Shown here piece by piece: positions 6,356 through 9,531 of a stretch of 55,777 nt of DNA. Position 1 is the first letter of the stretch. Every line of letters starts with the position of its first letter. The notes below the pieces were generated by a model, which saw only the letters and a list, made by a program, of their open reading frames with translations, searched no databases and had not been told where the DNA came from. Position numbers and translations under genes: made by a program. This DNA is from Prevotella sp. (lineage in GTDB: Bacteria > Bacteroidota > Bacteroidia > Bacteroidales > Bacteroidaceae). The stretch spans positions 1-55,777 of the forward strand of contig JAGCPC010000114.1 in the NCBI GenBank assembly GCA_017642485.1, read 5' to 3'.

Positions 6356-6415
6356 TATTTCCGTAGTTTTTCCCTATTTTATTTTGCAAAAAGAAAAATA
6401 ATTGTTACTTTTGTA
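6356..6415 (+). repeat. Promoter-bearing direct repeat, copy 1
   Basis: A 60-bp segment, repeated at 7053-7112 with three mismatches by eye. It includes the complete promoter of the 145-aa gene. Confidence 0.85.
6383..6413 (+). promoter_or_regulatory. Promoter of the 145-aa gene
   Basis: TTTG at 6383-6386, a 19-base spacer and TACTTTTG at 6406-6413 match the Bacteroidetes promoter exactly. The ATG follows at 6440. Confidence 0.75.
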
Positions 6416-6439
6416 AACAGAAAATCTTAAATCACTCCA

Positions 6440-6877
6440 ATGACAAAGAGTACACAACGAAACTACTATATAGAAAACAAACGCATAAGGACTGAAGTAC
6501 TTAAAATTGCAGAACTTCTTAAAAGCAATCCCATTCATTTTACCATTACCAATGGAATAACAATGAATGTTGAAATTACGAAATCAGACCTCAAGACTAT
6601 TGTCAGTAAAAATGTGAATGATGACAAGTTTAATGCTATCAAGAATGCCCTGGCTAAAGACATCATGGGTTATTTGCAGAAAGCTGAATATCTTGGTTGG
6701 CGTCCTGTAGCAGAAGACAAGCATTACGAAAGTGCTTATTTCGCATATTTCAGTAGAGAATTGGGATGTAAGACTATCTTATGTATGCGCAAACTTGCAG
6801 ATAGCGGTATGTATAAACCGTATGCAATAATCAATGAACATACCTTTGAAAATTCTGTAGCAGCACTAAGAAAATAG
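6440..6877 (+). CDS. Unknown 145-aa protein in accessory island
   Basis: Soluble, basic, no signal peptide or membrane segment. I do not recognise it with confidence. The C-terminal half (HYESAYFAYFSRELGCKT, then LCMRKL and a Tyr/Lys-rich strand) recalls small RNase-like domains found in polymorphic toxins and phage proteins (the Barnase/ColicinE5/RelE-like fold). Conserved His and Arg candidates are visible in that stretch, but this is a weak resemblance. It has its own strong promoter, duplicated upstream of the methyltransferase gene. It is convergent with a candidate structured RNA on the minus strand (about 7014 down to 6870) whose end reaches its stop codon. An RNA-controlled toxin is one possibility, and an orphan phage gene is another. 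Confidence 0.65.
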   Translation: MTKSTQRNYYIENKRIRTEVLKIAELLKSNPIHFTITNGITMNVEITKSDLKTIVSKNVNDDKFNAIKNALAKDIMGYLQKAEYLGWRPVAEDKHYESAYFAYFSRELGCKTILCMRKLADSGMYKPYAIINEHTFENSVAALRK

Positions 6878-7014
6878 AAACTCCGTCTTGATAAGTCACT
6901 TGCCGATACAAACGGGGCTCTTATCCTAGACGGAGCTATTGAGTGTCAACATCTTGCAAGTCGCTTGCCGATACAAACGGGGCTCTTGCCCTATGCGATA
7001 CACTTTTTTATCTT
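6870..7014 (-). ncRNA. Candidate structured RNA with two tandem hairpin repeats
   Basis: A minus-strand promoter at 7021-7052 would start an RNA near 7014. It would carry two copies of a 34-nt hairpin, 6956-6989 and 6891-6924, 65 bases apart. They share a 27-base core with one change. The closing pairs differ but stay complementary: GCAAG/CTTGC in one, ATAAG/CTTAT in the other. An outer stem (CTCCGTCT at 6881-6888 with AGACGGAG at 6928-6935) encloses the second repeat, and is followed on the minus strand by a T-rich stretch that could end transcription. I know no RNA family with this sequence. Confidence 0.6.
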
Positions 7015-7020
7015 CTGCTG

Positions 7021-7052
7021 CAAAGGTAAGAAGTTTTTTTGTTACTTCCAAA
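7021..7052 (-). promoter_or_regulatory. Minus-strand promoter of the tandem-hairpin RNA
   Basis: Read on the minus strand: TTTG (7052-7049), a 20-base spacer, TACCTTTG (7028-7021). It lies back to back with the plus-strand promoter at 7080-7110. Confidence 0.65.
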
Positions 7053-7112
7053 TATTTCCGTAGTTTTTCTCTATTTTATTTTGCGAAAAGAAAAATAATT
7101 ATTACTTTTGTA
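7053..7112 (+). repeat. Promoter-bearing direct repeat, copy 2
   Basis: Second copy of the 60-bp segment at 6356-6415, with three mismatches and intact promoter elements. Confidence 0.85.
7080..7110 (+). promoter_or_regulatory. Promoter of the methyltransferase gene
   Basis: TTTG at 7080-7083, 19-base spacer, TACTTTTG at 7103-7110. Transcription would begin near 7117 and leave a leader of about 107 bases before the ATG at 7224. Confidence 0.75.
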
Positions 7113-7223: not shown

Positions 7224-8351
7224 ATGGCAAATACTAACCTTGCTAATGCTAAGTCGGCGAAGAACGATGAGTTCTACACTCAATATACGGACATCCAGAA
7301 GGAGATGAATGCCTATCTGGAGTTTAATCCCGATGTGTTCAGAGGAAAGACGATATTGCTCCCCTGTGACGACCCCGAATGGAGTAACTTCACTAAGTTC
7401 TTTGCTCAGAACTTTGAATCTTTCGGTATTAAGAAACTTATTTCCACGAGCTATGCTGTAGAGGCAAAGAGAATAAAGGAATGGAAGCCCACGCTCTTTG
7501 AGACGGAGAGCCCATACTATGATGCTGACAAGAGCCGAACCAATGGCAAGATTTTTGTGCTGGATGAGGACATAAACGGCGATGGACGTTTCAATATCAA
7601 CGACCTTCAATGGAGCTATCTTGATGGCGATGGTGACTTCCGTAGCGATGAGGTGAAGGTTCTGCGTGATGAGGCTGACATCATCATCACCAATCCTCCT
7701 TTCTCTCTGTTTAGGGAGTTTATGGCTTGGTTGGTTGACTCAGGAAAGAAGTATACTGTTATTGGTAACGTAAATGCTATTTCTTATAAAGAGGTCTTTC
7801 CTTTAATTAAAAAAGATATGATGTGGATGGGTGCAAGTATCCACAGTGGAGATAGAGAATTTGGTGTTCCAGAAAGTTATCCACTTGAAGCTGCAGGTTG
7901 GCGAATTGATGAAAAAGGCAATAAATATATACGTGTCAAAGGTGTGCGTTGGTTTACCAACATTGAGCATGGTCGCCGTCATGAGCCACTTCCTTTGATG
8001 ACGATGGAGGACAATATACTATACTCCAAGCACAAAGAGGTTAAGGGAAAGGGGTATGTTCATTACGAGAATTACGATGCAATAGATGTACCTTACACAG
8101 ATGCTATTCCTGAAGATTATGATGGAATGATGGGTGTACCACTAACTTTCCTTGACAAATATTGTCCTGAGCAGTTTGAAATAATTGGTCAGACGCAAGG
8201 CGATTCGGGTAAGGAACTTGGGCTAAAACCATATCCTCGCGAGCTCAAGAAACTAAACAAGAGCCTTAGGGATGGTCAATTGTACTATATAGATGAGAAT
8301 GGCATTCCTCAAAAACCATACGCTAGAATACTAATCCGCAAAAAACAATAA
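7224..8351 (+). CDS. EcoRI-family adenine-specific DNA methyltransferase
   Basis: A 375-residue protein with catalytic motif IV NPPF at about residues 157-160, preceded by DIIIT, as in N6-adenine methyltransferases. The N-terminal part ([16 protein letters not shown] and [16 protein letters not shown]) and the segment [15 protein letters not shown] are characteristic of the M.EcoRI-like family, so it should transfer methyl groups from S-adenosylmethionine to adenine in a specific site. The site cannot be read from sequence. An insert with a dockerin-like Asp pattern ([16 protein letters not shown]) lies near residue 115. The gene has its own promoter and structured leader, and is followed after 4 bases by a DUF262-HNH nuclease gene, which suggests a restriction or defence pair. 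Confidence 0.88.
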
Positions 8352-8355
8352 GACT

Positions 8356-9531
8356 ATGAAGACGACACTGTTAACAGAAATCACCGTCAAGGAGATTTGC
8401 GAGGGCTTTGTCTATAACCAGTTGGAGGGCAAAGGACTGTTTGGATGGGCAGGCAAGCTGACCATTCAGCCTGAGTATCAGCGTAACTACCTGTATGCTG
8501 AGAATGACGGCAAGAAGGAGGTGGCTGTGATAGACAGTATGCTGAAGGACTATCCTATAGGATTGATATACTTCAACGAGCCCGAGCCTGGTAGATACGA
8601 GATACTCGACGGTCAGCAACGCATAACCAGCATAGGTCGCTTTGTGACGGAGAAGTTTGCCATAAAGGATAAATTCGGTATGGAGCAATACTTCACGGGT
8701 CTGACAGAAGAGGAAAAAGATAAGATACTGTCATATCGTTTGTTGATATACGTATGTAATGGCACGGAGAAGGAGATAAAGGAGTGGTTTGAGACTATCA
8801 ACATAGCTGGTGTGCCACTGAACAAACAGGAACTGCTCAATGCTACCTACTCAGGACCATTCGTGACACTCGTCAAAGCCACGTTCAGCAATTCGCGCAA
8901 TCCACAGTTGCAGAAGTGGGGATGCTACGTCAGCGGTAATGCCAACAGGCAGGACATACTGCATACTGCCCTCTCATGGGTGGCAAATGGTGAAGACAAT
9001 ATCGGAGGCTATATGAGCCTGCATCGTCAGGACAACAGCATCGATGAACTGAAGACTTATTTTGATACTGTGATAGAATGGGCGAAGACCTTGTTTGGTG
9101 AGCCTAAGAACGAGATGCGAGGACTGGAATGGGGAGAGTTTTATGAAAGGTATCATGCTAACTCATATAATCCCTCAGCCCTGCAACAACGGGTAAACGA
9201 ACTGTATGCCGATGAGTATGTCACTAACAAGCGTGGCATCTTTGAATATCTGCTTGGAGGCGAGATAGACCAGCGTCTGCTCAACATCCGTATATTTGAG
9301 GACAACGTGAAGAAGACCGTCTATGCCCGTCAAACCAACGAGGCACAGGCTATGGGCATCAGCAACTGCCCCGAATGCGCCAAGGGACATGAGAATGTTC
9401 GCACCAAGATATACAAGTTCAACGAAATGGATGCCGACCATGTGACTGCATGGAGCAAGGGCGGAGCTACGGACATAGCAAACTGCCAGATGCTATGCAA
9501 GACGCATAACAGGGCGAAAGGAAATAGATAA
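8356..9531 (+). CDS. DUF262 (GmrS-like) protein with C-terminal HNH nuclease
   Basis: 391 residues. The N-terminal DUF262/ParB-like domain carries the DGQQR motif (85-89, within [11 protein letters not shown]), which in GmrSD and relatives binds nucleotide and drives activity. The C-terminus is an HNH nuclease with zinc-type cysteines (C338, C341, C377, C381), DADH (H362) and a terminal THNR (H384, N385). It starts 4 bases after the methyltransferase stop, so the two are surely co-transcribed. Known DUF262 nucleases such as GmrSD, BrxU and SspE attack modified phage DNA or depend on a host mark. The linked methyltransferase suggests either a restriction-modification pair or a self/non-self system. 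The inferred role has not been tested. Confidence 0.85.

Follow-up and report, generated by a model that had tools for sequence, protein, structure and literature searches.

A stretch of 55,777 nucleotides of Prevotella sp. DNA (contig JAGCPC010000114.1 of assembly GCA_017642485.1; hereafter the window) carries a cassette in which a gene for a 145-aa protein converges with a predicted small RNA gene of two tandem hairpins on the minus strand. We propose, with a probability of roughly two in three, that the two form a toxin-antitoxin-like pair in which the folded RNA would be the antidote, working in the manner of AbiF and type III systems while standing outside type III. Comparative analysis of related loci establishes that the structured RNA is kept, which strand encodes it, that its convergent layout with the gene is fixed, that RNA and protein are inherited jointly, and that broken copies of the gene mostly retain the RNA.

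A structured RNA kept beside a 145-aa gene

A first-pass annotation of the DNA had described two tandem hairpins with compensatory base changes, and that observation is confirmed and extends beyond the window. A 36-nt direct repeat, 92% identical, occurs at 6893-6928 and again 65 nt away at 6958-6993. Two neighbouring inner-stem pairs change in a coordinated manner between the copies, being A-U and U-A in one hairpin (minus-strand stem GAUAAG/CUUAUC) and G-C and C-G in the other (GGCAAG/CUUGC(A)). The hairpins are not 34 nt long, as had been stated, but about 55-61 nt, because a variable, covarying outer stem belongs to each. The annotated minus-strand promoter with 20-base spacing was found again. 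For the window the outer stem is a prediction; many relatives have AAAGGAAC/GUUCCUUU there, and the T-rich end indeed lies over the stop codon of the convergent gene. The minus strand of 6870-7020 folds with -47.9 kcal/mol (z = -4.17), which 0 of 200 shuffled sequences equalled, whereas the plus strand folds less strongly (z = -2.58; 1 of 200 shuffles as good).

Two forms of the RNA occur among relatives, form A with two hairpins and form B with one. For form A, 28 hairpins, including the two of the window, were hand-picked from 69 distinct ones. In this set 89.1% of the stem cells are paired, against 70.8% in shuffled and 27-46% in slid controls. Both sides change in 14 of the 17 pairs (10.9 when shuffled; 5 of 500 shuffles reach 14), in keeping with the earlier claim that the structure is maintained. 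The covariation score is 0.590, against 0.243 when shuffled (0 of 500) and at most 0.168 in the slid controls. A separate count over 57 of the 69 hairpins, from which 12 of another subclass were excluded, found the stems in agreement. G-U cells (40) outnumber A-C cells (14) in the aligned hairpins, as expected if the RNA is read from the minus strand. The form A core AGCC-[CCG..CGG]-CAAGYRA is kept, whereas hairpins 1 and 2 have different outer stems, the same core recurring within a single RNA under unlike outer stems. Form B has the core UAGCACCGUAAUCGGGUUAGCAAA, and AGCN-[CCG..CGG]-..AGCRA is common to both forms. The form B alignment was hand-chosen (7 of 17 distinct sequences plus one from G726, a genome of another family of the order); 6 of its 16 pairs covary, a result matched by 0 of 500 shuffles. 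As judged from these alignments, a structured minus-strand RNA is kept by selection. The RNA stretches searched matched no Rfam family; scores for snoR127, Hovlinc, MIR4380 and RMST_1 lay far under the cut-offs and were taken as chance. In one genome (G112) both copies (L054 and L058, the same as loci L023 and L043) have a different leader of about 100 nt between promoter and hairpin 1.

The association of RNA and gene was tallied by script over 71 loci, comprising 68 from a scan of a genome collection, a viral contig (L116), the window, and a second copy from its own genome (L044); gene integrity was taken from profile coverage and the RNA core was sought within about 330 nt. All 51 intact genes with at least 150 nt of downstream sequence have the RNA on their 3' side and on the opposite strand, so the convergent arrangement first noticed in the window holds at the same place throughout. 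A loose pattern finds a Bacteroidales-type promoter in the RNA stretch of 50 of these 51 loci. No intact gene without the RNA was seen in the 71 loci. Broken genes, defined as incomplete relative to the profile and in a few cases possibly assembly errors, keep the RNA in 15 of the 17 loci with the same downstream length, the two without it being L110 and L114. Three loci have less than 150 nt downstream: L071 is intact and has the RNA, and L091 and L112 are broken, with the RNA not seen.

In the searches made, homologues of the gene came from Prevotella-like genomes and from the viral contig, whose copy lacks its first part and is accompanied by a form B RNA. The 68 scan loci are in records titled Prevotella, Prevotellaceae, Bacteroidaceae, Bacteroidales or Xylanibacter; many bear rumen or deer names, and the cultured ruminicola strains D31d and KHT3 are included. 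Because the scan relied on two short peptide patterns, it may have missed distant relatives; the material consists of sampled genomes, fragments from metagenomes and contig ends. When 100 relatives were searched by pattern, the same pair of hairpins turned up, 65 nt apart, in a genome of the same genus (G008) beside an 83% identical protein, and further RNA copies in G018, G025 and G050; the loose-pattern matches L004, L005, L008-L011 and L015 bore no resemblance to the RNA and were set aside. At the protein level, homologues were found in 23 of 200 genomes of the genus, that of the window among them. Among 27 places, 25 have the RNA just past the gene on the opposite strand; of the two exceptions, L033 lies at a contig end and L040 is a broken copy.

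The covariance search that had been suggested as a check was run with model R1, which has matches in 29 of 249 genomes of the genus, again counting the window's own, so that homologues with covarying stems do exist. The own genome has four matches, two at each of two loci, and none of the 29 has more than four. Thirteen R1 places were examined. A full or near-full gene is present at L149, L151 and L152 and a remnant at L155 and L157, and the profile finds no gene beside the RNA in the other eight. Of these eight, L150 alone has a complete RNA of two hairpins together with a promoter, L161 has both hairpins but no clear promoter, and L159 (G104), whose R1 match spans 102 nt for a 63-position model, was taken as chance. 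The others are single, hybrid or truncated hairpins, in our reading products of decay. At L160 (G257) and L018 (G050 C11), a promoter and the first half of hairpin 1 stand alone before other genes, and these remnants may now serve as promoters of those genes.

The hairpins are thus found beside this gene, its remnants, or as few lone or decayed copies, and the suspicion that they might be a common transposon end is not borne out as far as tested. More generally, we find it hardly credible that they act as DNA elements, such as a transposon end, a REP-like repeat or an attachment site. Tandem hairpins and the direct repeats around some cassettes would suit such elements, but the copies per genome are few, G-U cells exceed A-C cells, a promoter and a T-run are present, and the direct repeats consist of local flank and not of the hairpins. 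An ordinary repeat or transposon end is rejected on the low copy number.

A plasmid or phage home is rejected: tblastn against 72,556 plasmid and 50,697 phage records gave zero matches, and exact core patterns in viral contigs found nothing or L116 only. The profile of the A2 protein set (47 sequences chosen by hand: 45 of 54 full-length ones, the window protein and L116) detected the own genome only among 296 genomes of the phylum. Among 247 genomes of the order, the form B core has a single site outside the family (G726), and none was found in 345 genomes of the phylum. This G726 core (L174, 7302, minus strand) has a different outer stem, lies downstream of a HicB-like-looking frame and is about 3.4 kb from frames that by eye resemble the EcoRI-type methylase/GmrSD-like pair of the window; no toxin homologue was found in the 3-kb locus L173 of that genome.

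On a tree of the 47 proteins, the RNA form changes once, the hairpin 2 class twice and the apical sequence of the last hairpin 11 times. In the 29 loci where both hairpins could be read, hairpin 2 requires 5 changes of apical stem class for 6 states (10-16 in 100 shuffles) and hairpin 1 requires 7 for 5 states (10-13), the two classes agreeing in 22 of the 29. Linked inheritance by itself could produce this pattern; the tighter fit of hairpin 2 hints that hairpin 2 is the one matched to the protein. An RNA that is itself the working part of a two-part RNA-protein effector, as a scaffold or specificity RNA of a complex perhaps used in defence, would likewise show the 51-of-51 linkage and a core inherited together with the protein, and would be at home beside the restriction-modification genes that adjoin some cassettes. 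We nevertheless consider such an effector rather unlikely, since the RNA is so often kept by broken protein genes (15 of 17), the aligned hairpins contain no guide-like variable stretch, and the number of hairpins varies between one in form B and two in form A.

The 145-aa protein and the proposed antidote mechanism

The alignment of the 47 proteins has 21 invariant columns, including W87, R88, K94, H95, E97, R117, K126, P127 and Y128. Over 22 unsaturated pairs dN/dS has a median of 0.08 and a maximum of 0.24, the median indicating purifying selection. The Pfam family LPD3 (PF18798) matches 45 of the 47 members weakly but consistently, with a best E of 5.8e-6, and the protein appears to be a distant LPD3 relative. 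The available text of PMC5512222 describes LPD3 as a domain of large multi-domain proteins, whereas the protein here stands alone. In our own searches LPD3 was found in frames of 126 to 4977 aa. None of the ToxN, CptN or TenpN models is among the 13 Pfam families matched at E <= 0.1 by the 47 members, the family has no Pfam match to Abi_2/AbiD/F, and the protein profile has no sequence match in the PDB. Matches to Cas8a (2 of 15 members, best 0.0028), to PHROGs of unassigned function (0.024 or worse), to two PDB chains (0.45 and 1.3) and, weakly, in PADLOC were taken as chance.

In the mechanism we favour, the 145-aa protein would be a growth-inhibiting enzyme, by analogy probably a ribonuclease. 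The kept inner core of the hairpin (AGCN, the CCG..CGG apical stem-loop and AGCRA) would bind directly to the protein and hold it inactive. The two partners would be made from separate promoters, with the RNA ending in a T-run over the stop codon of the toxin gene, and loss of the RNA, for example after phage takeover, would release the toxin. The antidote and the silencing are suggested by the anatomy of the cassette and the loss pattern, and the remainder by analogy with AbiF and type III systems; we infer transcription, toxicity, RNA-protein binding, nuclease activity and a role in phage defence.

Several points weigh against a toxin-antidote pair. The LPD3 score of the window protein is 18.4 bits, under the curated cut-off of 27 bits, and that of the second copy in the same genome, at 24.2 bits, is under it as well; hhalign against nine LPD3 sequences gives a probability of 57%, and UPF0223 is also weakly matched (17 of 47 members, best 0.0015). 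LPD3 itself is without known function in the available text of PMC5512222. A regulator or a bipartite RNA-protein machine could likewise account for the joint inheritance and the pattern of losses. The neighbourhood is mixed. Of 95 neighbouring proteins the 76 longer ones were scanned, and the families named are from among the first 25 listed per table. In favour of the pair, they include four EcoRI-type methylases (that of the window counted), three N6 methylases and one each of FokI, AlwI and ZorA; on the other side are four VapE-like proteins, one transposase and housekeeping families, all as raw counts with no background rate to set them against.

If no toxin were involved, the RNA might regulate the gene or its neighbours, a possibility left room by the uncharacterised LPD3 domain (PMC5512222, available text). 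We judge it very unlikely: the cassette stands beside unlike genes in both orientations, so that the neighbours are hardly the target of the RNA, and loci with a broken protein gene often retain the RNA.

The predicted RNA reads head-on into the stop codon of the 145-aa gene. By estimate, it overlaps the reading frame by about 25-30 nt at most and, at the shortest, by the stop codon alone. KGTPL or a similar sequence forms the end of the protein in one subclass, and the codons for it are the complement of the last stem of the RNA, so that gene and RNA are interlocked there. Such an RNA might act as a type I-like antisense, pairing with the 3' end of the toxin mRNA and lowering its amount or translation, as in txpA/RatA. 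Convergent layout and 3' complementarity are known in type I systems from the available text of PMC8167048, and a toxin mRNA that continued beyond the stop codon would match the RNA in complement, such a continuation being needed for any complementarity outside the short overlap. This explanation strikes us as improbable because the overlap with the frame is so short, because the structure, including its G-U pairs and invariant core, is kept, and because the protein belongs to a conserved 145-aa family with many charged residues and is no small hydrophobic peptide.

Features of the window, surroundings and direct repeats

Table 1. Parts of the Prevotella sp. cassette and its neighbours (window coordinates)
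Feature	Position	Strand	Details
Whole cassette, ~640 bp (145-aa gene with leader, convergent RNA gene with its promoter)	6416..7052		
LPD3-like protein, 145 aa, proposed toxin	6440..6877	+	
Promoter-like site of the 145-aa gene, TTTG-N19-TACTTTTG	6383..6413	+	sequence
RNA promoter, Bacteroidales-type, TTTG-N20-TACCTTTG	7021..7052	-	TTTG 7052-7049, 20 nt, TACCTTTG 7028-7021
Predicted form A RNA, ~140 nt, proposed antitoxin RNA	6873..7016 (both ends estimated)	-	
Hairpin 1, first in the RNA	6943..7003	-	
Hairpin 2, adjoining the gene	6881..6935	-	apical stem class tracks protein tree most closely
T-rich tail of the RNA	6870..6880	-	covers stop codon of convergent gene (6875-6877)
EcoRI-type adenine methyltransferase (neighbour)	7224..8351	+	PF13651, E 2e-130
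GmrSD_N + HNH nuclease-like protein (neighbour)	8356..9531	+	PF03235, PF01844

The two neighbours in Table 1 form a restriction-modification-like pair, the second member of which matches no EcoRI nuclease model. Between loci, blastn homology rarely reaches past the cassette. Among 601 pairs drawn from 39 loci, it extends over 100 nt ahead of the gene in 8 and for 250 nt or more past it in 5, though divergence too can end such matches. The nearest frames around the cassettes vary in size and strand.

The window cassette lies between 60-nt direct repeats, 95% identical, which end at promoter boxes (6356-6415 and 7053-7112), and the promoter of the 145-aa gene falls inside this near-copy of the stretch that precedes the next gene. 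Direct repeats flank 18 of 60 cassettes, compared with 4 of 139 control genes taken from these loci, and strong ones (at least 40 nt, 85% identity) flank 7 of 60 (the window, L073, L049, L107, L075, L082 and L098) compared with 1 of 139. In 9 of the 18 the left copy ends at most 2 nt after a TAnnTTTG box. The downstream stretch of control genes is perhaps more often coding, so the weak repeats may reflect promoter likeness; strong repeats are harder to explain in that way. It is as if insertion had duplicated the promoter of the neighbour, one copy going to the toxin gene. A few loci, L069 and L070 among them, have inverted repeats in place of direct ones.

Another kept RNA element is convergent to a Prevotella DUF3800 gene (Pfam) in L177, to a like frame in L179 (near 1501-1541) and to a shorter one in L176; no long frame faces it in L180. 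The DUF3800-associated stretch searched has no Rfam match. In L044, L052 and L157 this element is fused ahead of the form A RNA (L044 and L178 are from C181 of the own genome), as if antidote modules had been joined. One may imagine a wider class of toxin-antidote cassettes in which an RNA lies head-on to a gene, modules are joined or exchanged between unrelated toxins (LPD3-like and DUF3800), and spread occurs by insertion after a promoter, duplicating about 40-150 bp of local DNA and giving the toxin gene a copy of the promoter of its neighbour; we hold this extension to be doubtful.

Comparison with known systems

Described type III systems are operons with a single promoter, in which repeats lie upstream of the toxin with a terminator between (available text of PMC5086642). 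Like ToxIN, CptIN and TenpIN, the cassette ties a structured, partly repeated RNA to a small protein gene, and known type III members act in phage defence. Unlike them, it has two promoters and convergent genes, the RNA lies 3' of the toxin gene in 51 of 51 intact loci, there is no ToxN match, and the hairpins found are nested, pseudoknots not having been searched for. The tandem repeats typical of type III antitoxins come here as two copies in form A and one in form B. The first-pass annotation had likened the RNA to these antitoxins while remarking that the arrangement would be new. Its interpretation is partly supported, in that the structured minus-strand RNA is kept by selection, is tied to the convergent gene and has a layout indeed unlike described type III systems; as to the likeness itself, neither the operon layout nor a match to Rfam, ToxN or Abi_2 was found. 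Membership of type III is rejected, as the defining operon layout is absent and the proposed toxin matches no ToxN/CptN/TenpN model; any likeness to type III antitoxins would be one of function, as the anatomy suggests.

A parallel with a tested mechanism is the abortive infection system AbiF, in which the RNA RCd22 carries a pair of hairpin motifs and neutralises the toxin through direct contact (available text of PMC12373285). Like the cassette, AbiF places beside one gene a short RNA, about 100-130 nt, in which a hairpin motif occurs twice; neutralisation by direct binding was tested for AbiF and is proposed for the present cassette by analogy. RCd22, however, is upstream, on the same strand and co-transcribed (PMC12373285), whereas our RNA is convergent, and the AbiF protein is of the Abi_2/AbiD/F family, to which the 145-aa protein has no match. 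The abiF RNA motif RF03085 was not among the Rfam matches of the stretches searched.

Convergent type I systems, txpA/RatA and par/Fst, share with the cassette genes whose 3' ends meet and have a convergent RNA antidote with 3' complementarity (available text of PMC8167048). They differ in combining small peptide toxins with antisense RNAs, where the cassette joins a conserved protein of 145 aa to an RNA whose core covaries.

A search of open-licence papers by titles and starts of abstracts gave no description of this gene-RNA pair. A survey of human microbiome RNAs reports ToxI-like candidates and, in Prevotella, candidates near uvrC (available text of PMC8040213), and novelty is judged here apart from the several thousand motifs of that survey.

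The cassette also differs, in both protein and RNA, from DUF3800-associated RNA motifs. These too are structured RNAs beside a protein gene.

RNA antidotes that silence proteins by binding are known from few families, and in the accounts cited above the type III and AbiF ones are upstream and on the same strand. If our reading is correct, a convergent, separately promoted RNA antidote paired with another toxin family would widen that class. Its clear covarying core lends itself to testing, rumen Prevotella would gain a candidate module linked to defence, and similar pairs may be sought through structured RNAs 3' of orphan genes.
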